From NCBI GenBank assembly GCA_017553625.1, contig JAFZKP010000004.1, positions 1 to 34,272 on the forward strand: a stretch of DNA of 34,272 bases, written 5' to 3'. Within the stretch, counting starts at the first letter, position 1. Each line of letters starts with the position of its first letter. The position numbers and the translations under genes are program-made. Source of the stretch: Bacteroidales bacterium. GTDB taxonomy: Bacteria; Bacteroidota; Bacteroidia; Bacteroidales; F082. Shown in pieces: positions 3,001 to 11,288 of this stretch. The notes under the pieces are model-generated. The model did not search any database, was not told where the DNA came from, and saw only the letters and a list, made by a program, of their open reading frames with translations.

Positions 3001-3564
3001 GCAAAAGGCTGGGCTGGAGCATTCCTTTACAACGAGAAGGCGCGCAAAGCTCTCGAGAACTTCTACAAACGTCCGGATACCATGAGTCTCGGTGTGTGCA
3101 ACGGCTGCCAGCTCATGACCGAGCTCAACCTCATCTACCCTGACCACAACAAGCATCCGCGCATGATTCACAACGACTCGCACAAGTTCGAGTCAGGATT
3201 TGTGAACGTAAACATCGCCGACAGCAACAGCATCATGCTTTCAAGCCTCAAAGGCCGTCGTCTCGGTGTGTGGATTGCTCACGGCGAGGGCAAGTTCAAC
3301 TTCCCATACGGCAAGGAAAAATACAACATCGCGTTGACCTACAGCTACGACGGATACCCGGCAAATCCTAACGGTTCGCCATGGTCAGTAGCCGGCATCT
3401 GCTCCGCCGACGGCCGTCACCTCGCGATGATGCCGCACCTCGAACGCGCCTTCCTCCCATGGCAGTGGCCATACTATCCACAGAACCGCAAAGACGATGA
3501 AGTGGCACCATGGATCGAGGCGTTTGTGAATGCATTAAATTGGATTAAAAAGAATCGTGAATAA
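1..3564 (+). CDS. purL: Phosphoribosylformylglycinamidine synthase, 5'-truncated by the window edge
   Basis: Large single-chain FGAM synthase of purine biosynthesis: it converts FGAR, ATP and glutamine to FGAM in the cytoplasm. The frame is open from base 1 and reads [20 protein letters not shown], a typical internal PurL stretch, so the ATG at 31 is probably not the start and I estimate that about 50 N-terminal residues lie outside the window. Counting from the codon at 31, the ATP/substrate-binding synthetase part includes [20 protein letters not shown] near residues 190-210. The C-terminal class I glutaminase domain carries the nucleophile Cys in [10 protein letters not shown] (Cys1023) and the His/Glu pair in PHLERAF (His1136, Glu1138). 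The catalytic parts look intact and the gene ends with a clean TAA. There is no tightly linked partner downstream; the next plus-strand element is a candidate small RNA. Confidence 0.97.
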
Positions 3565-3614
3565 CAAAAAAGAAAAAATTTTCTCAAACAGCTGCATATA
3601 TAAAAATAAAGTTG

Positions 3615-3622
3615 TAATTTTG
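3615..3622 (+). promoter_or_regulatory. Bacteroidota-type -7 promoter box (TAATTTTG)
   Basis: TAATTTTG matches the TAnnTTTG consensus and lies 50 bp after the purL stop. I see no convincing TTG at the -33 position. The only thing downstream on this strand before a terminator is the candidate small RNA, so this box would make it an independent transcript rather than a purL tail. Confidence 0.5.
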
Positions 3623-3628
3623 CAGTCA

Positions 3629-3757
3629 GAAAAGTCGTGATAGGACGATGTCAATGAGTAGTGCGAAGCCCCCGCCCGCATAGCATCACACAAAAGTGTA
3701 ACCCTCCATCACGCATTAAGGGGCGAGACTTAAGGCATCTAAATAGATGCCTTTTTC
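3629..3757 (+). ncRNA. Candidate standalone small RNA, unclassified
   Basis: About 130 nt lie between a -7 box and an intrinsic terminator, with no credible reading frame. Several pairings can be drawn: CGTGAT-A-GG near 3636 with CCATCACG near 3707; a TGCG/CGCA hairpin around the CCCCCGCCC tract; an ACAC/GTGT hairpin near 3690; and TTAAG/CTTAA around GGGCGAGA. GGGCG at about 3721 could also pair with CGCCC at about 3673 as a pseudoknot. The flanking genes point away from it as a target: purL ends upstream and the next gene is on the other strand, so a trans-acting or housekeeping RNA is likelier than a riboswitch. I could not match it to SRP RNA, tmRNA, RNase P or any riboswitch I know. Confidence 0.45.
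3733..3756 (+). terminator. Intrinsic terminator
   Basis: AGGCATCT (3733-3740), a 4-nt AAAT loop and AGATGCCT (3745-3752) form a perfect 8-bp stem followed directly by a T-run. It ends the candidate small RNA. The T-run is on the plus-strand side only, so it is a poorer terminator for the minus-strand gene ending at 3759. Confidence 0.75.
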
Positions 3758-3758
3758 A

Positions 3759-4178
3759 TTATTCATTCCTAATAGCTGTTATACAATACTGAACTTTCTC
3801 ATGTGTCCTTCGGCGTATGCCAACAGTCATTTTGACTTTACCGATACATATTATCTCATATTCCATAATCATGATTCTTTCAAAAGGTTTTTGGTTTTTA
3901 CTATCAGATTTGGTCTTTTGAATAGAGACTTTCTTCGCTCCGGCAAGAATAGAATCTAGTTGCATGACAGCTAAAGTCGAAAGATAGTTTTTGGCCGCAT
4001 GTTCACTGGTTTCAATAATCGAAACCATACGTATATTTATATAATCTTTCAATGAGATATTATATTTCCTCTGTAATGGATTTTTCTCTTTCCATTCACG
4101 ATAAAAATCTCGAATTATTCCTTCACGTACTTTGATACTATCTAAGGAATCATCTTTTGGTATTTGTGTTATATTCAT
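3759..4178 (-). CDS. Hypothetical protein, partner of the DUF1016-domain gene
   Basis: A 139-residue protein with no signal peptide or membrane segment. I do not recognise the family. The N-terminal two thirds are predicted helical and charged (IKVREGIIRDFYREWKEKNP). The C-terminal end is more strand-like, basic and conserved-looking (KVKMTVGIRRRTHEKVQYCI). It starts 12 nt after the stop of the upstream DUF1016-domain gene, on the same strand and with no promoter of its own, so the two are probably co-transcribed and may act together. A two-gene cassette with an inverted repeat in its leader recalls toxin-antitoxin or defence pairs, but nothing in this protein shows a catalytic motif. Confidence 0.7.
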   Translation of the reverse strand: MNITQIPKDDSLDSIKVREGIIRDFYREWKEKNPLQRKYNISLKDYINIRMVSIIETSEHAAKNYLSTLAVMQLDSILAGAKKVSIQKTKSDSKNQKPFERIMIMEYEIICIGKVKMTVGIRRRTHEKVQYCITAIRNE

Positions 4179-4190
4179 ATTAAATTTGTG

Positions 4191-4730
4191 TTAGTTCTTT
4201 TCATTGAGATGATACTGTGTTGTTAAATAACTCCAAAACTCTGTTGCACATCTTCTGATATAAAACATACGCTCTTCCAATGTTTTTGTTTTTGATAAAA
4301 TCAAACTATGATTTGTAAAACCGACATGCAGGAAGGCTTCCATTTCTTCTTCTGTAAAATCGCCAGTTGTCAACTGGCGAATTTCCAACTCACTGATATT
4401 CAATGTATAAAAATCGTCAATTGGCAACTGACGATTTTCGAATACATCTTTCCAACCTTCATAAAAAGTTCTCATCATCTTAATATTTGACTCCGAATAC
4501 CCTCTCAATCCTGGCATTTCTTTCTGCAATAGTTCGAAGATTATTTTTATTGCATTGCTGCCCCATTTCGCCGAACGGCTGTTGATGGAAATAAACCGCC
4601 CGATTGCGTAGTTAAGGTATAAAACTTCCTTGTTTACATGTTGAATCGCGCGATAACGGCTTTGCGTTATGGCATCTTTCAAGGCTTTCACCGCCTGTAA
4701 ATAATCTTGTGTAATCATTAAAGATTCCAT
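4191..4730 (-). CDS. DUF1016 (YhcG-like) N-terminal domain protein, short form
   Basis: 179 residues. The sequence resembles the N-terminal DNA-binding-like domain of the DUF1016/YhcG family: an N-terminal helix (AVKALKDAITQSRYRAIQHV), then LNYAIGRFIS, then a conserved block (ELLQKEMPGLRGYSESNIKMMRTFYEGW). Full-length members continue with a PDDEXK-type nuclease domain; this one stops at about residue 179, so no nuclease domain is present here. Two palindromic stretches sit inside the reading frame (see the repeat entry) and encode the near-repeats NRQLPIDDFY and EIRQLTTGDF. The gene is first in a two-gene minus-strand unit, with a promoter and an inverted repeat upstream. The family is variously linked to defence and restriction loci; the role of this short form is unknown. 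Confidence 0.75.
   Translation of the reverse strand: MESLMITQDYLQAVKALKDAITQSRYRAIQHVNKEVLYLNYAIGRFISINSRSAKWGSNAIKIIFELLQKEMPGLRGYSESNIKMMRTFYEGWKDVFENRQLPIDDFYTLNISELEIRQLTTGDFTEEEMEAFLHVGFTNHSLILSKTKTLEERMFYIRRCATEFWSYLTTQYHLNEKN
4360..4438. repeat. Two palindromes inside the DUF1016-domain reading frame
   Basis: 4360-4380 is a 10-bp stem with a single-base loop (TCGCCAGTTG / CAACTGGCGA). 4410-4438 has 10-bp arms (AAAATCGTCA / TGACGATTTT) plus an inner TTG/CAA. The cores are related (GTCAACTGGCG versus GTCAATTGGCAACTGACG). Both are in frame and encode similar peptides with the pattern RQL-x-x-(D/G)DF, as expected if a short palindromic element had inserted or duplicated within the gene. 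Confidence 0.7.
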
Positions 4731-4760
4731 AAATTTTTAATTTAATTGTTAAACAAATAT

Positions 4761-4805
4761 AACGACAATATCAACTTGTCGTTTGAGTTTCATGTTGCAA
4801 AAATA
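4761..4805 (-). promoter_or_regulatory. Promoter and operator-like inverted repeat of the DUF1016 operon
   Basis: On the minus strand a TATTTTTG box (4805-4798) has a TTG about 20 bp upstream. Between it and the gene, AACGACAA (4761-4768) and TTGTCGTT (4776-4783) form 8-bp inverted arms with a 7-bp spacer. The repeat would be transcribed, so it could be an operator or an RNA hairpin. A 14-codon ORF starting at 4794 overlaps it and is probably chance. Confidence 0.5.
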
Positions 4806-4932
4806 TAAAAATTATTTCAAAAAAGCAACTTTTACAAAAGATTTTTTCATCAAAGATGATATATTCTATTGATATATAATGATTTTACAACCATTTCACC
4901 AACTATTTTTGGCAGTATTACAAAAACAATAA

Positions 4933-4969
4933 TCCCCGAACCCATTTGATTTTTCAATAAGCTCGGGGA
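4933..4969 (-). terminator. Probable terminator of the caspase-lipoprotein operon
   Basis: TCCCCGA (4933-4939) and TCGGGGA (4963-4969) form a 7-bp stem with a 23-nt loop. It lies just after the last gene of the minus-strand operon and is followed on that strand by a T-rich stretch. The long loop makes it weaker than the other terminators in the window. The rest of 4731-4991 is AT-rich and holds only the DUF1016 promoter. Confidence 0.5.
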
Positions 4970-4991
4970 CTTTTATTTGAAGATTGTAAGA

Positions 4992-6533
4992 TTACTTCAA
5001 CCTCATATTTCGCCAGCTGTTAACTGCATTTTCACTGACGTTGGTGGTCGGAGTCTGAACTTTCTCATTGGTGAGGAATGACTCACGTTTCACGTTGTCT
5101 TTGATGTATTTATCAAGGTCTCCGTAGCTGACATCGCCTTTGGTTTCCTGAAGTTTTTTCAAAAGGTAATATGTGAACAAGCCGTGACCTTGTTCTTTAT
5201 ATGTCATTGCTGTTTCTGCCCCAGATGCTGCGGAAAACACAACTGTATTACCTTTAAGAGTTTCTTTTTTGGCTTCGCGGGCCACACCGCGAGCGGCAAC
5301 AAGCATTGAACCTTCCTTGTTTGCTCCGCTAAAGCATGCATCCATGAAATAAGTTATACTGGTGGCGTTTGAAGCTGCAAGTGTTGTATATAGTTTGTTA
5401 AGACTGTAACAAGTGGCAGTGTTTGTGCCTTTACCATCAGTAGGGACGATATAAGCATCACCTGTATGTTCATCCGAAATGCCATGACCACAATAATAAA
5501 CGATAGCTTTTGAGTTGTCAAATAAACTCATTGCCTGAACCATCTTGTCGACACCGCCAGAAATGATGCCTGCTGTAGCATCTTGATAAAACCAGACTTG
5601 TCTTTCAGGCACACCTAATGTTTTGATGCAGTATTCCTTGAACACTTCTCCATCGTGAACTGCGAAATCTACATTATCTACAAATGCATAATGTTCATTT
5701 GCAATAATAAGGACAAAGGTGTCACTTGCTTTGCGTTCGGTTTTAGGGATGTTTACGTCAACATCAGCTGATATTGCGTTTGCCAAAGTAGGCTGTGTAT
5801 ATGTTACAGGTTGGACGGCAGTCTGCTGAACCGATTGTAGTTGTTGAACTGGTTGTACTTGTTGAATTGGCTGCATTTGTTGCTGCACTATTACAGGTTG
5901 CTCAATAGGTTCTATTTTAGTTGGCTTATATTTTGGCGTTGTCAAATACAACTGTTCTGTGATAGATTCTGCATCACGCTCAATATCTGCACGGAAATCT
6001 GTCATCGCTTTTTTTGTGGCATCTACCACAACGACCAATGCATCTCTTCCATAATAAAACCCTATAGAAGATTCATCAGACACATCATAAGAATAAGTTT
6101 TTATAACATTATTGTTATCATAGATGTTAACTTTTAATCTTATGTTACATGAAAACTTATTGGTGGGACATCCTAAAATATTTGCAGTCAATAATGTGAA
6201 ACCAGATACAAGAGGATAAAGGATGTTGAGCTTGGGGGCATAATTCTCGCATATAACCTCAATTCTGCCATAATATGCTGAATCATCTTTGTCAAAGATG
6301 TTTTCTTGAATCTCATCCATTACCACTGGTTTTATGTAAGTGTTTACAACTGATTGCAGATTCTTTTTTAAATTTGGAGATACACTAAAATCCACCTTCA
6401 TTTTTGGTAATTGTTGGGGTATTGATGGATTGTTTGTTTTAAGCATAGCTGCTTGATATGTATTACACCCAGACAATGTTAGTAGTATTGCTGAAGTTAT
6501 CAACAATAATCTGAATATTTGTATTTTTTTCAT
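4992..6533 (-). CDS. Lipoprotein with C-terminal caspase-like (peptidase C14) domain, copy 1
   Basis: 513 residues. It begins with a lipoprotein signal (lipobox LSGC about 20 residues in), so it should be anchored to a membrane, facing the periplasm or cell surface. Residues about 40-205 form an envelope-lipoprotein-like domain I cannot name. A Gln-rich linker (QQQMQPIQQVQPVQQLQ) at about 215-245 precedes the caspase-fold peptidase at 257-513. The catalytic dyad is visible: His350 in YYCGHGIS and Cys400 in MDACFSG. Bacterial C14 proteases often cleave after basic residues, but specificity cannot be read here. It is last in a four-gene operon, 11 nt after its paralogue. The caspase domains of the two copies are about 96% identical (10 differences in 257 residues by my count), while the N-terminal halves differ strongly. 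Confidence 0.9.
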   Translation of the reverse strand: MKKIQIFRLLLITSAILLTLSGCNTYQAAMLKTNNPSIPQQLPKMKVDFSVSPNLKKNLQSVVNTYIKPVVMDEIQENIFDKDDSAYYGRIEVICENYAPKLNILYPLVSGFTLLTANILGCPTNKFSCNIRLKVNIYDNNNVIKTYSYDVSDESSIGFYYGRDALVVVVDATKKAMTDFRADIERDAESITEQLYLTTPKYKPTKIEPIEQPVIVQQQMQPIQQVQPVQQLQSVQQTAVQPVTYTQPTLANAISADVDVNIPKTERKASDTFVLIIANEHYAFVDNVDFAVHDGEVFKEYCIKTLGVPERQVWFYQDATAGIISGGVDKMVQAMSLFDNSKAIVYYCGHGISDEHTGDAYIVPTDGKGTNTATCYSLNKLYTTLAASNATSITYFMDACFSGANKEGSMLVAARGVAREAKKETLKGNTVVFSAASGAETAMTYKEQGHGLFTYYLLKKLQETKGDVSYGDLDKYIKDNVKRESFLTNEKVQTPTTNVSENAVNSWRNMRLK

Positions 6534-6544
6534 AATACTTAGGT

Positions 6545-8050
6545 TTATTTCAAATTCATTTCTCTCCAGCTGTCAACTGCGTTTTCACTCACGTTCGTTG
6601 TCGGTGTTTGAACCTTCTCGTTAGTGAGGAATGACTCACGTTTCACGTTGTCTTTGATGTATTTGTCGAGGTCTCCGTAGCTGACATCGCCTTTGGTTTC
6701 CTGAAGTTTTTTCAAAAGGTAATATGTGAACAAGCCATGGCCTTTTTCCTTGTATGTCATTGCTGTTTCTGCCCCAGATGCTGCAGAAAATACTACTGTA
6801 TTGCCTTTAAGAGTCTCTTTTTTGGCTTCACGGGCCACACCGCGAGCGGCAACAAGCATTGAGCCTTCTTTGTTAGCTCCACTGAAGCATGCATCCATGA
6901 AATAAGTGATACTGGTGGCGTTTGAAGCTGCAAGTGTCGTATATAGTTTGTTAAGACTGTAACAAGTGGCTGTATTTGTGCCTTTGCCATCAGTAGGGAC
7001 GATATAAGCGTCACCAGTGTGTTCATCCGGAATGCCATGACCACAATAATAAACGATAGCCTTTGAGTTGTCAAATAAACTCATTGCCTGAACCATCTTA
7101 TCGACACCTCCTGATATAATACCAGCTGAAGCGTCTTTATAGAACCATACTTGTCTTTCTGGCACGCCCAAAGTGTTTATGCAGTATTCCTTAAAAATCT
7201 CTCCATCGTGAACTGCGAAATCTACATTATCTACAAATGCATAATGTTCATTTGCAATAATTAGGACAAAGGTGTCACTTGCTTTTCGCCCTGTTTTAGG
7301 AATGTTGACATCAACATCTGATTGGATTGATTTTTCTGTAACTGTTTGTGCCGGCTGATTCACAACTTGTTGTTGAACTGGTTGGATTTGTTGTTGGGCG
7401 ATAGCAGGTTGCTGATAGTAATTGTTATTAGGATACTTTGGCACGGCTGATTCATTTATCTTTTGCGTAATCATATCGGCATCACGCTCAATGTCTTTTC
7501 TGAAATCTGCCAGCACTTTTTTAGTGACATCAACCAAAACCACACCATTACCTCTTCCATAATAAAATCCTAAAAGAGATTTATCAGTTGCACGATATTT
7601 ATATTTTTTTATGATTTCATTATTATTATCATAAATATTAAATTGCATTTTTATATCCCATTTTGTAACATCAATAGGGAAACCTAAAAAATTGGCAGTG
7701 AATAATGTACAGGCTGAGAGCATAAGCCATGTCTGGTTATTAGCCTCGTCTAACCTCTCACATACCGCCTCAATTCTACCATTCGAGTTTGATGGTGCTC
7801 CATATGATATGATATTATGTTTTAATTCTTCAGTTATTGTTTTTTCAACAATTTCGAAATCTATATCAGCACTTGCACCTAAAAAAGAATTGTTGCTTTT
7901 TTTAAAAGTCACCTGCATGCATGGCAGTTTTTGTTTAATTGGGGGATTTGTAGTACTAACCAAAGATTCGTTGTATATTGAACAACTTGACAAGGCAAGA
8001 GTTACAGCCAACGTGGCAAATACTAATTTAATAATGTGTACCTTTTTCAT
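6545..8050 (-). CDS. Lipoprotein with C-terminal caspase-like (peptidase C14) domain, copy 2
   Basis: 501 residues with the same plan as the copy downstream: lipoprotein signal (lipobox LSSC), an envelope-type domain at about 40-205 with a shared YDNNN...GFYYGR core, a Gln/Pro linker (IAQQQIQPVQQQVVNQPAQ) and a caspase-like domain at 245-501. The dyad is His338 in YYCGHGIP and Cys388 in MDACFSG. It starts 18 nt after the DUF4384 gene. Because the N-terminal domains have diverged while the peptidase domains are nearly identical, the pair looks like an old duplication with recent gene conversion of the 3' half, or a recent domain swap. The N-terminal halves may bind different partners while delivering the same protease. 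Confidence 0.9.
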   Translation of the reverse strand: MKKVHIIKLVFATLAVTLALSSCSIYNESLVSTTNPPIKQKLPCMQVTFKKSNNSFLGASADIDFEIVEKTITEELKHNIISYGAPSNSNGRIEAVCERLDEANNQTWLMLSACTLFTANFLGFPIDVTKWDIKMQFNIYDNNNEIIKKYKYRATDKSLLGFYYGRGNGVVLVDVTKKVLADFRKDIERDADMITQKINESAVPKYPNNNYYQQPAIAQQQIQPVQQQVVNQPAQTVTEKSIQSDVDVNIPKTGRKASDTFVLIIANEHYAFVDNVDFAVHDGEIFKEYCINTLGVPERQVWFYKDASAGIISGGVDKMVQAMSLFDNSKAIVYYCGHGIPDEHTGDAYIVPTDGKGTNTATCYSLNKLYTTLAASNATSITYFMDACFSGANKEGSMLVAARGVAREAKKETLKGNTVVFSAASGAETAMTYKEKGHGLFTYYLLKKLQETKGDVSYGDLDKYIKDNVKRESFLTNEKVQTPTTNVSENAVDSWREMNLK

Positions 8051-8068
8051 ATTGATAAATTTTTAGTT

Positions 8069-8914
8069 TTACTTTTTTCTTATTTCAACTGTTTTTTCAA
8101 TCACCTGCATTGTCTCATCGTTGATGCGGTTTTTGCGTAACCATTTCATGAACTTGTCGGCTGGAATTTCGGGAACATATTCGCCATCTTCCGATATTGG
8201 GAGCGAGAACTGGTTTTTAGAGAAAACAACAAGTATAGTATTGAATTCAACTGTTTTGTCAGTGACCAGAATGGTCTCTTCTCGGAAAGGATAAATAGGG
8301 TCTTTCGTTGAAAGAAAATTGTACTTTGTTCCGCTTTTCACTGCACGAACTTCTCCGTTCTCGTTTTCGTATGGTAACATGCAGTATATAGGGTCAAGAT
8401 TCTCGTCGCGAAGGAAAATCGCTACATAGCCTTTTGATGCCGATTTGAAATCAATAGAAAACTTGTCATTGTTTTTGAAACGTTCGTTTTCCATTCCGTT
8501 GCAAAGTATTTTTATATCCATTTCAGTTTCGGCATTTTTGATTTCCCTTGCCTTACCCCAAACTTTGGCTATTATGACCATTACGTCGTTTTCATAGAAG
8601 GTCTTGACTTCCGGTTCCTTGGTGTCGTCAATCCATAAACCTTTAGATTCTGTGCCGCCCATGGAAATGAACCCTGTTTCCACTTTGCCATCAACAACTT
8701 TTGTAGTAGTGGTATTGGTTTGCGACACCACCGTGCCGAATTCCTTTGCCATGGCCTCGTTGCGTGCGCGTTCAATGGCAATATTTAGGGCTTCGGTTCT
8801 TGAAACGTTATCAGGAACAACGTAACGGTATTCACCACTCACATTGACAGCTTTCTGGGCGTTGCCCACAAAAGCCAAAGCCAGCAAAATGATTGAAAAA
8901 ACTAATCTTTTCAT
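8069..8914 (-). CDS. Secreted DUF4384-domain protein
   Basis: 281 residues with a cleavable signal peptide (MKRLVFSIILLALAFVGNAQ, no lipobox), so periplasmic or exported. The N-terminal part (about 25-125) starts with an Ala-rich helix (EALNIAIERARNEAMAKEFG) followed by strands, resembling LPP20/FlgT-N type envelope domains. Residues about 140-245 look like DUF4384 (NNDKFSIDFKSASKGYVAIF, then IYCMLPYENENGEVRAVKSG). DUF4384 domains are commonly found fused to or beside caspase-like peptidases, in line with the two C14 genes directly downstream. It begins 3 nt after the stop of the LPP20-like gene, which implies tight co-expression. It has no catalytic motif, so a sensing or adaptor role is my inference. 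Confidence 0.8.
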   Translation of the reverse strand: MKRLVFSIILLALAFVGNAQKAVNVSGEYRYVVPDNVSRTEALNIAIERARNEAMAKEFGTVVSQTNTTTTKVVDGKVETGFISMGGTESKGLWIDDTKEPEVKTFYENDVMVIIAKVWGKAREIKNAETEMDIKILCNGMENERFKNNDKFSIDFKSASKGYVAIFLRDENLDPIYCMLPYENENGEVRAVKSGTKYNFLSTKDPIYPFREETILVTDKTVEFNTILVVFSKNQFSLPISEDGEYVPEIPADKFMKWLRKNRINDETMQVIEKTVEIRKK

Positions 8915-8917
8915 GGT

Positions 8918-9607
8918 TTAGAAGCCTAAAATCTCATCAAGTTGTTCGGCAAGCTTATCCGATTTCTTGTTCATCTCCTCGCGAATGGCGTCTTTTGCCG
9001 CCGCCTTTGCCATATCGCTGTTGTACATAATCACAACTCTAACCTCTTTATTCTTGTTTTTAAGGTCGCGATAAAGCTCCAAGGCAATTATGGTTCTGCC
9101 AATTTTTTGTTGAATAAGACTTTTCGCCGCCATCACCGATTCAGTGGCGGAAACAGCTTCTTCTGAATTAAGTTGATTGTTTTCAACACGGCTGTCGATG
9201 AGAGCGCCCACTTCGGTTGAGATATTGCCTGCCAACTCTATTTTTGCGAGATTCACTGCCTGCATCTTGGCTGCGTCATAGTTTCCGCCTACTGACATGG
9301 CTTCACCTTTTATAAATTTAGGGAAACCTGTATTTAAATCTATTTCATACTGCATCTCGTAAAGGTGGTCGAGTTGTTTTTCCATAGGCAGTGAACCTGG
9401 AGCCACTTTCCAGCCATCTTTTTGCAGCTGTTTCGCCGCTTTACGTGCGTCTTTTGAAGCTTTTTCCTTGGCTTGGTCTTTGGTGAATTTCTGCATTTCC
9501 TTGCGTTCCTTCATGAACTCTTTGTAATCTTTTTCTTGTGCGTTACAGAACGCTGTGAATGCGAACAGCATAACGGCTGTCATTAATAAATGTAAGGTTT
9601 TTTTCAT
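8918..9607 (-). CDS. Secreted LPP20-like protein, first gene of the caspase operon
   Basis: 229 residues with a signal peptide ending around AFCNAQ. A strongly charged helical stretch (about 25-65, DYKEFMKERKEMQKFTKDQA onward) is probably a coiled coil. Residues about 95-200 have the LPP20-like pattern of an Ala-rich helix and a strand (AAKMQAVNLAKIELAGNIST, then ALELYRDLKNKNKEVRVVIM), and a second charged helix closes the protein. Unusually for Bacteroidota it has a near-perfect Shine-Dalgarno (GGAGGA at 9620-9615, 7 nt before the ATG). It heads the operon behind a long structured leader. Function is unknown; an envelope scaffold or sensor for the caspase lipoproteins is inference from context. 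Confidence 0.75.
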   Translation of the reverse strand: MKKTLHLLMTAVMLFAFTAFCNAQEKDYKEFMKERKEMQKFTKDQAKEKASKDARKAAKQLQKDGWKVAPGSLPMEKQLDHLYEMQYEIDLNTGFPKFIKGEAMSVGGNYDAAKMQAVNLAKIELAGNISTEVGALIDSRVENNQLNSEEAVSATESVMAAKSLIQQKIGRTIIALELYRDLKNKNKEVRVVIMYNSDMAKAAAKDAIREEMNKKSDKLAEQLDEILGF

Positions 9608-9881
9608 TAGTTAATCCTCCATCCGTGTCAGCTCCACCACAGAAAATAACCAGTTAATTAATAAAGGAAGCGTGGAACTGTATGCCAATCTCTGAATGAA
9701 GGTCGTAGGAAAAACCTAAAGTTGAAGAATGGGGATAGCCCACGCTATAATAGCGCGAACCATTATACTATTCTTGCAACTTTTAATGAAAATTTCCTAC
9801 GTTTTCATTCACAAGACGAGCATAACGCTTCGTTAATTTCAATAAATAGTGGTTTAATTGCTTAAACCAAGTGCAAATATA
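9608..9881 (-). promoter_or_regulatory. Promoter and long structured 5' leader of the caspase-lipoprotein operon
   Basis: A TATATTTG box at 9881-9874 (minus strand) would start transcription near 9867, leaving a leader of about 260 nt. At the start site is an 8-bp inverted repeat, TGGTTTAA (9850-9857) with TTAAACCA (9862-9869). Further along, CGCTAT-A-ATAGCG (9743-9755) forms a hairpin. The overlapping CCACGCT (9740-9746) can instead pair with AGCGTGG (9669-9675), enclosing about 64 nt, so the two helices exclude each other. The leader ends in a strong Shine-Dalgarno. No known riboswitch motif is recognisable. A dispersed non-coding repeat is an alternative reading of 9665-9780. Confidence 0.45.
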
Positions 9882-9921
9882 CAAATTTTTAAATAATCTT
9901 AGAAAATTTTTGAAAAATTTA

Positions 9922-10120
9922 GCGTGCCGGAGGCACGCCACCTCATTTACCCCGCACAAGCGCAGCACAGTGTGGGGGTCTCGCAGAGCCTAATAGTCCA
10001 AAATATCAAGTTGGCGGCGCGCCGTTCCGGCGCGCCTCATAATTTTAATTATATAATATCCCATCACAAATCGCCCCAGGCGTTGCCTGGGGCTAATAAG
10101 ATGGCGTGCCTCTGGCACGC
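9922..10120. repeat. Cluster of five short intergenic hairpins
   Basis: The units are: GCGTGCC-GGA-GGCACGC (9922-9938); CCCC-G-CACA paired with TGTGGGGG (9950-9978); GGCGCGCC-GTTCC-GGCGCGCC (10016-10036); GCCCCAGGC-GTT-GCCTGGGGC (10073-10093); and GCGTGCC-TCT-GGCACGC (10104-10120). The first and last share identical arms with different loops. They are GC-rich islands in AT-rich DNA, which is how REP-like or small mobile palindromes look. An apparent plus-strand frame through them from 9924 is not credible as a gene. The rest of the 646-bp gap holds the leader to the left and the Fic promoter to the right. Confidence 0.75.
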
Positions 10121-10253: not shown

Positions 10254-11288
10254 ATGAAAAAAGAGTCGGAAATACTTCAATTTTTGCACTTTCATCCTGA
10301 GAGCTCAAGGAATGATATAGAAATAGGTTTGAATCTTACTGAAAGTCCCGCCACGCTTAAGAGGATGCTGGCTTCGCTTGTCGAAAAAGGCGATGTTAAT
10401 GTTGTCGGACAAGGTCGTGCCACACGCTATAGCATATCCGCCAAGGCTCAAGTGACGATGATAATTGATATTGAAACATATTTCAAAAAAGAGACCGACG
10501 AACGTGTTGTCCAGAGTGGTTTTAATTTCTCTTTGATAAATGATATATTACCGAAAGTTGCGATTTTTACATCAGAGGAGATGGAACGGCTTAATGCTCT
10601 ACAAAACCAGTTTAAACAGAATTTACAAGGCATTTCAGACACCGAATACCGTAAGGAAATGGAACGTCTCGGCATCGATTTGAGTTGGAAATCGTCGCAA
10701 ATCGAAGGAAACACCTATTCACTGCTTGAGACAGAGAAGCTTTTGAAAGAAAAACAAACGGCATCGGGTAAGACGAAAGAAGAGGCGGTGATGCTTTTGA
10801 ATCACAAGGATGCGTTGGATTTTATTCTTGATAATCCCGATTATTTTAAACAACTGAATATCAGAAGAATAGAAGATATTCACAGTCTGCTCGTCAAGGA
10901 ACTGGATGTGGACAAAGGCATCCGCAAGCGTCGTGTCGGCATCACCGGCACCAATTACCGACCGCTTGACAACGAGTTTCAAATTCGCGAGGCGTTAGAG
11001 GACTCATGTAAGCTTATCAATGCAAAAGAGAATGTTTTCGAGAAGGCCATTCTCGCATTGGTTTTGCTTTCTTATATCCAAGCGTTTGCCGATGGCAACA
11101 AGCGTACTGCACGCATTACGAGCAACGCTATCCTGATTGCCAACGGTTATTGTCCAATTTCGTTCCGCACTGTTGATTCCATCGACTACAAAAAGGCAAT
11201 GCTAGTTTTTTACGAGCAGAACAACATTTCTGCGTTCAAGCAAATTTTCATCGAGCAATTTGCATTCGCTGTAGAACAGTATTTTTAA
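10254..11288 (+). CDS. Fic-family protein with winged-helix N terminus and His-to-Gln Fic motif
   Basis: 344 residues. Residues 1-65 look like a winged helix-turn-helix (SRNDIEIGLNLTESPATLKR, then a basic wing). The Fic core follows. An inhibitory helix of the (S/T)xxxE(G/N) type is present as S147-SQI-E151-G152, ahead of the core (class II arrangement). The active-site loop reads YIQAFADGNKRTARI: canonical Fic has HxFx(D/E)GN(G/K)R, but here the catalytic base position is Gln276 (codon CAA at 11079). The phosphate-binding DGNKR part is intact. Classical Fic proteins AMPylate hydroxyl side chains; without the His, AMP transfer should be impaired or the reaction may differ. The gene is a lone unit with its own operator-flanked promoter and a convergent neighbour only 1 nt away. 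Confidence 0.88.
   Translation: MKKESEILQFLHFHPESSRNDIEIGLNLTESPATLKRMLASLVEKGDVNVVGQGRATRYSISAKAQVTMIIDIETYFKKETDERVVQSGFNFSLINDILPKVAIFTSEEMERLNALQNQFKQNLQGISDTEYRKEMERLGIDLSWKSSQIEGNTYSLLETEKLLKEKQTASGKTKEEAVMLLNHKDALDFILDNPDYFKQLNIRRIEDIHSLLVKELDVDKGIRKRRVGITGTNYRPLDNEFQIREALEDSCKLINAKENVFEKAILALVLLSYIQAFADGNKRTARITSNAILIANGYCPISFRTVDSIDYKKAMLVFYEQNNISAFKQIFIEQFAFAVEQYF

Follow-up and report, generated by a model that had tools for sequence, protein, structure and literature searches.

We found that four minus-strand genes at positions 4992-9607 of the 34,272-nt Bacteroidales sequence analysed (the window) form an operon for exported proteins, two of which are caspase lipoproteins, and that the operon is preceded by a covarying structured leader RNA, new here and without a credible match in Rfam 15. 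The core caspase set recurs in related gut bacteria, where its distribution is patchy; the caspase domain is constant and the N-terminal module is swapped. The features, in the direction of transcription, are as follows.

9874-9881, minus strand: promoter-like -7 element TATATTTG, read from the sequence
9850-9869, minus strand: small 5' hairpin TGGTTTAA...TTAAACCA, from a single-sequence fold, near the predicted transcript start
9664-9833, minus strand: main leader-RNA hairpin, about 170 nt, from folding and covariation
8918-9607, minus strand: 'LPP20-like' exported protein, 229 aa; ORF, signal peptidase I type by eye, cut before Q
8069-8914, minus strand: DUF4384-like exported protein, 281 aa; ORF, DUF4384-like in its C-part, the N-part having weak FlgT_N matches in few relatives
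6545-8050, minus strand: caspase lipoprotein A, 501 aa; ORF, lipobox LSSC, variable N-part, C14 from about residue 244
4992-6533, minus strand: caspase lipoprotein B, 513 aa; ORF, lipobox LSGC, variable N-part, C14 from about residue 256
4921-4969, minus strand: terminator-like hairpin TCCCCGA...TCGGGGA (4969-4933), then a T-rich tail, read from the sequence

A preliminary description of this DNA had proposed a four-gene operon with one promoter and one terminator, and the ORF list reproduced the genes, their strand and the intergenic gaps of 3, 18 and 11 nt. Both the promoter-like TATATTTG, which we take to be of the Bacteroidota -7 type, and the terminator-like hairpin were found by reading the sequence; a simple scan returned neither, because it used a sigma-70 promoter model and a hairpin loop limit of 8. 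The structured leader between the promoter and the first gene was absent from that description.

Caspases A and B matched Pfam C14 with 59.1 and 53.7 bits (cut-off, 21.4), placing both in the C14 p20 family, and the intact dyads attributed to them were borne out by the catalytic His (YYCGHG) and Cys (DACFSG) residues present in each. Among 54 operon caspases, 48 of which make up alignment A9, the His was retained in 51, the Cys in 52 and an Asp two positions before the Cys in all 54, with dyad residues missing in three proteins. By sequence, the nearest solved relative was the paracaspase MALT1 (E 7.4e-8), followed by metacaspases; D294 and D398, present in 54/54 operon caspases, align with MALT1 Asp residues that presumably have a role in the Arg pocket. 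Cleavage after Arg/Lys is the predicted specificity of the constant C-terminal domain. The two window caspases agree in 96% of the C14 domain and in only 40% of the N-part; A and its counterpart in genome G032 share 79% in the N-part and 80% in the domain (169 columns, contig-cut). Identifiable N-terminal modules among the 54 proteins included LRR_5 (12), Sel1 (11) and WG (7).

The names given to the other two proteins fared differently. For the first, LPP20 membership is unsupported: Pfam LPP20 (PF02169) did not match the 229-aa protein, which carries no lipobox and is not a lipoprotein, and at E<=0.5 it matched 2 of the 75 members of alignment A7 (74/76 LPP20-like ORFs plus the window; best E 0.0036), so that the LPP20 lipoprotein name was rejected. 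The unrelated DUF6488 matched 16 of these 75 members (best E 0.00023). For the second, DUF4384 (PF14326) scored 16.5 bits in the window protein, below the 27-bit cut-off, but was found at E<=0.5 in 63 of the 68 members of alignment A8 (67/69 DUF4384-like ORFs plus the window), with a best E of 2.6e-8; DUF4384 is marginal in the window. FlgT_N matched 3/68 members (best E 0.0039). Profile searches of the PDB with either family gave nothing useful, and a profile comparison between the two aligned one helix with a probability of 5.6%.

Cytoplasmic caspase defence effectors typically carry no export signal and have an NTPase, pore or sensor partner. The present caspases carry lipobox signal sequences, and an NTPase, pore or sensor partner was not recognised in the operon; these signals and the recurrence of the homologue set fit the proposal of exported proteins instead of a suicide gene acting in the cytoplasm. 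A narrow regular expression found signal sequences in only 22 of the 54 operon caspases, most of which look signal-bearing by eye. The preliminary description had also placed the system in the envelope or on the surface. All four parts do look exported, but surface placement did not hold: an export signal of the CS(D/E)2 type marks surface-exposed lipoproteins in Bacteroides, according to the part of the source used here (PMC6222051), and was absent after the lipid Cys of A and B (C-NTYQ and C-SIYN), ruling out surface exposure through this signal. Since the caspase lipoproteins lack it, the periplasmic face is more likely than the surface, as judged from these residues.

Homologues of the three protein types occur together in other genomes, so the possibility that they would not be found together elsewhere, raised in the preliminary description, did not materialise; the exact order with two tandem caspases, however, is not the unit that is conserved. 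The co-location test covered hand-picked listed caspase places in genomes with an LPP20- or DUF4384-like gene, from an order-level set of 247 genomes, our own included. Among the matches listed, a caspase lay on the same strand within 5 kb of 19 of 25 DUF4384-like genes, where 0.11 would be expected, and 8 places combined all three parts. Caspases are common in this set (90/247 genomes), many of them at a distance from LPP20-like genes; among the matches listed and with kinship ignored, they were present in 23/23 DUF4384-bearing and 21/25 LPP20-bearing genomes versus 90/247 overall, four of the 25 LPP20-bearing genomes having no caspase at E<=1e-12, and only 11 of 27 listed LPP20-like places had a same-strand caspase within 5 kb. 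At the genus level, 3 of 36 genomes (own included) had all three parts, with the caspase of G031 on another contig. In the best 80 of 121 relatives, an LPP20-like ORF was called in 76 loci, and its run contained DUF4384 in 69/76 and a caspase in 48/76, or 37/57 where the run was not cut by a contig edge. The conserved core consists of the LPP20-like protein, the DUF4384-like protein and at least one caspase, with variable accessory genes. These accessory genes include OMP barrels and PEGA proteins, as seen in a scan of 96 of the 138 remaining operon ORFs above 110 aa, and one scanned member of a family present in 27 loci had a sub-threshold transglutaminase-core match (15.8 bits; threshold, 23).

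The leader of the window folds with z = -6.5; among 70 upstream regions that could be scored, 44 gave z < -3 (30 shuffles each). Alignment A13 contains 46 copies, namely seven operon leaders and 39 of 40 further copies, hand-picked mainly from the upper part of the match list. In it, two-sided changes occurred in 38/49 pairs, and paired columns contained 316 G-U versus 19 A-C cells, pointing to a sense-strand RNA, although both counts lean towards structure because A13 was fitted to the model. Sequence-only alignments were made of the seven leaders and of 27 copies, the latter showing two-sided changes in 14/38 pairs. For the small 5' hairpin region, the alignment of seven leaders predicted pairs in a different register. 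No credible known RNA family emerged from Rfam 15: none reached its gathering score, the sole overlap being tsr24 at locus L166, below threshold (27 vs 50 bits). A 15-codon ORF in the window hairpin was rejected as a leader peptide; by eye it is kept in three of seven leaders (the window, L055 and L076), the start codon being lost in four.

Of 396 genomes from the class, 91 carry copies of the leader RNA. In 18 of 80 loci (L074-L153, the best 80 of 121 relatives) a model match sits immediately ahead of the LPP20-like gene; this is not so in Odoribacter lunatus DSM 112344 (L128) and Phocaeicola plebeius DSM 17135 (L087), two cultured carriers of core sets, and the copy in L128 stands before a different gene. 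The usual setting is a promoter upstream and a gene for an exported protein downstream. TAnnTTTG lies within 110 nt upstream of 62 of 69 copies (46 from A13 and 23 more, with antisense matches and duplicate loci excluded), 6.6 being expected from mononucleotide shuffles, and the exported-gene control is 318 of 752 genes at the same loci by a home-made hydrophobicity rule; in other orders, methylase or restriction genes stand behind at least 5 of 18 copies. We lean slightly towards the view that the caspase operon is part of a regulon whose members share a new kind of structured cis leader RNA found across the class. Its targets would be genes for exported and accessory functions: in Bacteroidales those for envelope caspases, lipoproteins and parts of secretion systems, in other orders those for exported proteins and restriction-modification. 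Alternatively, the hairpin could be a small RNA gene in its own right or a mobile hairpin at the DNA level (MITE- or attC-like), which seems unlikely to us. Such an element would fit its multiple copies, many of which lie near contig ends in genome G051, its near-palindromic sequence, which gives weak antisense matches, and the T-rich stretch past the closing stem, where 6-8 of 11 letters are T in 40/46 copies. Against it, 42 A13 copies have TAnnTTTG within 110 nt, and in 35 of these the distance is 39-54 nt. No further TAnnTTTG follows within 120 nt past the RNA in the 46 copies, an ORF of at least 70 aa begins within 160 nt after it in 62/69, and the excess of G-U over A-C, in the model-fitted alignment, argues for a sense-strand RNA. 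The core sites of an integron attC form the pair RYYYAAC / GTTRRRY, which the hairpin ends do not fit, and attC was rejected.

For the proteins, the reading we put forward, at a probability slightly short of even, is a sensor-gated envelope orthocaspase module under this shared leader RNA. A single promoter would drive the leader and the four genes; the LPP20-like and DUF4384-like proteins would be released into the periplasm and may serve as a shared scaffold or regulator, their fold being suggested by weak profile matches, and the two caspases would be lipid-tethered, most likely on the outer membrane's periplasmic side. The swapped N-terminal modules would be sensors or adaptors choosing the timing and target of proteolysis, perhaps in envelope surveillance or conflict, and the leader may act in cis to set expression jointly with the other genes that carry it, perhaps through attenuation involving its closing stem and T-rich tail. 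Co-location, the retained dyads, the MALT1 match, the N-terminal swapping and the leader data speak for this reading. Counting against it are the patchy distribution, the caspases lying apart from LPP20-like genes, the four LPP20-bearing genomes with no caspase at E<=1e-12, the three operon caspases with missing dyad residues, the signal sequences picked up by the regular expression in only 22/54 caspases, and the -33 TTG that accompanies the promoter motif in only 18 of 42 A13 copies. The set could also be a housekeeping protease for constitutive maturation or turnover of exported proteins, in which the N-terminal repeats only position the caspases; the exported look of all four parts and the OMP barrel, PEGA and transglutaminase-like accessory genes (the last a sub-threshold match) are consistent with this, but the patchy distribution, with 8 places of co-location among the matches listed from 247 genomes, and the unusual N-terminal swapping and tandem copies make it fairly unlikely. 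Periplasmic conflict or self-killing, in which the caspases, once switched on by a trigger such as a phage or a competitor's toxin, destroy the envelope of their own cell, appears decidedly unlikely. Its supporting points are the repeat modules and tandem caspases, a seemingly active caspase adjoining a dyad-less one at L133, the leader RNA before restriction-modification genes in other orders, and matches to the PADLOC 'caspase' profile (9.1e-9 and 5.3e-8); however, these matches span just positions 3-158 of 453, and a defence partner gene was not recognised within the operon.

Discussion of caspase homologues in bacteria centres mostly on cytoplasmic effectors of death or defence. If the sensor-gated module is real, an exported set that recurs across genomes and joins exchangeable N-terminal modules to a constant protease would bring regulated proteolysis of the caspase type to the envelope of common gut bacteria. 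The leader RNA, strongly covarying and marking many genes of unknown function, would offer a direct handle on their regulation.

Several known systems resemble parts of this one, as far as the portions of the sources used here describe them. The leader resembles palindromic candidate structured RNAs, mostly from Bacteroidetes, in being structured and palindromic and in its distribution; among these, HMP2_4205, near TPR genes, is 132 bp long and is itself a predicted terminator (PMC8040213), compared with about 170 nt for the present hairpin; the likeness is one of description. FlgP, FlgT and Lpp20 are SHS2-fold proteins, FlgP and FlgT forming outer-membrane rings (PMC12222027, PMC11756786); our proteins share export and, at the profile level only, weak FlgT_N and LPP20 matches in few relatives, whereas a flagellar gene was not recognised among the operon neighbours scanned. 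A survey of prokaryotic caspase homologues describes C14 fused to WD40, TPR and Sel1, multi-caspase operons in four groups including Bacteroidetes, and 16 operons with cell-surface functions, some of the proteins carrying a possible signal peptide in the form of an N-terminal helix (PMC3501461). An LPP20/DUF4384-type export operon in Bacteroidetes and a leader RNA are not named in the portion of that survey used; the C14 domain, Sel1 modules and multi-caspase operons are common to both. Finally, DUF4384 has been described in cyanobacteria and an alphaproteobacterial clade, where it forms part of the caspase homologue (PMC6426788, PMC7475262), whereas here it belongs to a separate exported protein, the association of DUF4384 with a caspase being common to both.

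The operon occupies the minus strand of the window, where the four ORFs and the gaps between them agreed with the preliminary description:

9881-9874, minus: promoter element TATATTTG, upstream of the operon
9607..8918, minus: ORF 1, 'LPP20-like' protein; gap of 3 nt to the next ORF
8914..8069, minus: ORF 2, DUF4384-like protein; gap of 18 nt to the next ORF
8050..6545, minus: ORF 3, caspase A; gap of 11 nt to the next ORF
6533..4992, minus: ORF 4, caspase B, last of the four
4969-4933, minus: terminator-like hairpin, downstream of the operon
10254-11288, plus: Fic-domain gene, divergent from the operon

In a profile search both large proteins scored above the Pfam C14 cut-off, and they were the only two C14 genes at E<=0.01 in the host genome, an incomplete assembly (2.47 Mb, 52 contigs, 86.7% complete). 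Just downstream of the operon lie two ORFs on the minus strand: 4191-4730 encodes 179 aa with a DUF1016 N-terminal domain (75 bits in Pfam), and 3759-4178 is LPD3-like, at 26 bits against a cut-off of 27; a short ORF resembling the former by eye separates two caspase operons of another genome, G032 (L054:6240-6503). Several short GC-rich inverted repeats are present at 9920-10120, between the promoter and the Fic-domain gene.

The preliminary description had made its reading depend on homologues of these genes occurring together elsewhere, and such places were found. Searching named genomes for the LPP20-like family gave 121 relatives, of which the best 80 were retained. The best-scoring loci came from Bacteroidales assemblies of ruminant origin (red deer, water buffalo, yak), a set from which the record of the window itself, or one very close to it, may be missing. 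Within these best 80, the LPP20-like ORF was called in 76 loci; DUF4384 accompanied it within the run in 69 of the 76, and a caspase in 48 (37 of 57 when only runs clear of contig edges are counted). In the 44 loci having 5 kb on both sides, a same-strand caspase lay downstream in 33 and upstream in 7, and an opposite-strand caspase in none. Because the LPP20-like protein had served as the seed here, we also sampled the order evenly: among the 247 genomes taken, the window's own being one of them, LPP20-like proteins occurred in 25, DUF4384-like proteins in 23 and caspase domains in 90. A same-strand caspase was located within 5 kb of at least 19 of 25 DUF4384-like places (0.11 expected) and at least 11 of 27 LPP20-like places, and all three parts were co-located at no fewer than 8 places in 7 genomes, window included. 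Four LPP20-bearing genomes of this sample had no caspase at E<=1e-12 among the matches listed. In the window's own genus, 3 of 36 genomes carried all three parts. In addition, a Bacteroidales-type operon was present in a record titled Staphylococcus sp. (L136), probably a mislabelled assembly.

The units differ in composition, with variable genes interspersed between the core genes and after them. Domain scans of 96 of the 138 variable ORFs longer than 110 aa revealed Sel1 (7), OMP barrels (4), CHASE2 (3), WD40-type propellers (3), PEGA (2) and FGE (2), and a family of about 489 aa, present in 27 loci, gave a below-threshold transglutaminase-core match in the single member scanned. Among the 48 runs with a caspase, three (L094, L109 and L133) have more than one, as do L084 and one operon of G032. 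Within the genus, there are LPP20-like genes without an adjoining caspase; in L057 (region 3462-5494) such a gene follows a sigma-factor-like gene and a gene for a protein with C39-peptidase-like and carboxypeptidase-regulatory matches, and ORFs of similar appearance by eye precede other such genes (L060-L063); this context hints at a second mode of regulation.

We aligned 54 caspases, 52 from the loci and the two of the window. All matched C14; the dyad His was present in 51, the Cys in 52 and an Asp two residues before the Cys in all 54. Ahead of the domain stands a short SDVDxNIP motif, with Asp259 kept in 51/54 and Pro263 in 52/54, and the N-terminal modules vary: LRR_5 in 12, Sel1 in 11, WG repeats in 7 and DUF2846 in 3. 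Between caspases A and B of the window, identity is 96% in the domain and 40% in the N-part; the DNA encoding the domain is 90% identical, and the 247 residues that the two share carry 60 synonymous differences. The N-part of A is 79% identical to that of its G032 counterpart, which is cut by a contig end, and the domain 80% over 169 columns. A constant A/B domain, a diverged N-part and the match of A's N-part to G032 are what would be expected after gene conversion or module swapping.

Of the proposal of a system in the envelope or on the surface, export was supported, all four proteins looking exported by their signal sequences, but surface location was not. Specifically, both small proteins have signal sequences with predicted cleavage before Gln (by eye); a Q-rule of signal cleavage is described for Bacteroidetes (PMC5837995). 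The caspase lipoboxes, LSSC and LSGC, are followed by SIYN and NTYQ, so that CS(D/E)2, the lipoprotein surface signal described in Bacteroides (PMC6222051), is absent after the lipobox in both, making the periplasmic face the better guess for their location.

The stretch between the promoter and the first gene has a predicted folding energy of -83.9 kcal/mol (z -6.5; none of 200 shuffles as good), and the main hairpin of this leader RNA was kept by seven distinct leaders of near relatives. When these were aligned by sequence, two-sided changes appeared in 14 of the 63 pairs predicted for the leader as a whole. Of 60 relatives searched with a covariance model, 38 had copies, frequently more than one each, and the host genome had 7. 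In an alignment of 46 copies fitted to the model, standard pairs filled 95.9% of pair cells (77.6% when shuffled) and two-sided changes affected 38 of 49 pairs (22.4 when shuffled), with slid controls dropping to 37-49% paired; a sequence-only alignment of 27 copies gave 14 of 38 pairs. The excess of G-U over A-C cells (316 versus 19) in the model-fitted alignment points to the sense-strand RNA. A second model detected the RNA more widely in the class, in 91 of the 396 genomes and 53 of the 200 genera covered. No credible Rfam 15 family match was obtained in the stretches searched.

The promoter motif TAnnTTTG was found within 110 nt upstream of 62 of 69 copies (6.6 expected), and 62 of 69 also had an ORF of 70 aa or more beginning within 160 nt. 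Of these 62 ORFs, 52 looked exported; among control genes the figure was 318 of 752. Once the 20 LPP20-first copies were removed, 32 of 42 looked exported. Among the 42 of the 46 aligned copies with the motif within 110 nt, its distance to the hairpin was 39-54 nt in 35, and a -33 TTG accompanied it in 18. In 18 of the 80 loci L074-L153, a model put the RNA immediately upstream of the LPP20-like gene (L109 being weak, E 0.026). The RNA also stands ahead of caspase-bearing runs without an LPP20-like gene (L068, and L102 on the minus strand). Folding with z below -3 was seen in 44 of the 70 upstream regions that could be tested; 26 of these 44 belong to the 52 regions that gave no model match, and 6 of those 52 retained the closing motif. 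Of 20 copies sampled from the class search (2 from the host genome, 18 from other orders), 16 had the promoter motif within 150 nt. Nine of the 18 preceded exported or membrane proteins (by eye) and one had no ORF before the contig end; scanning the remaining eight gave five DNA-methylase or restriction genes (L207, L211, L212, L219, L224), one PLD domain and two ORFs without a domain match; scanning gave no match for the two host-genome copies either. In two genomes, the protein encoded after a copy is exported and has CsgG and Lcl_C matches, the two proteins being similar and one also matching FlgO (L206:968-2245, L175:2573-3784). Another copy precedes a PorV (type IX secretion) gene (L190:694-1893), and an abiF RNA (Rfam RF03085, over gathering score) lies near another (L161:413-449).

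The leader RNA most likely acts in cis, and our guess at the step would be attenuation at its closing stem. We tentatively regard the operon as a sensor-gated envelope orthocaspase module, a reading we put slightly short of an even chance, in which a sensor would gate the caspases, the two small exported proteins may serve as a scaffold and the caspases would act on a substrate. No description of the operon or leader RNA was found in the open-licence papers covered by our searches, where absence is not proof, nor in section 13 of PMC3501461. By sequence, the nearest solved relative of the caspases is MALT1 (E 7.4e-8), with metacaspases next.
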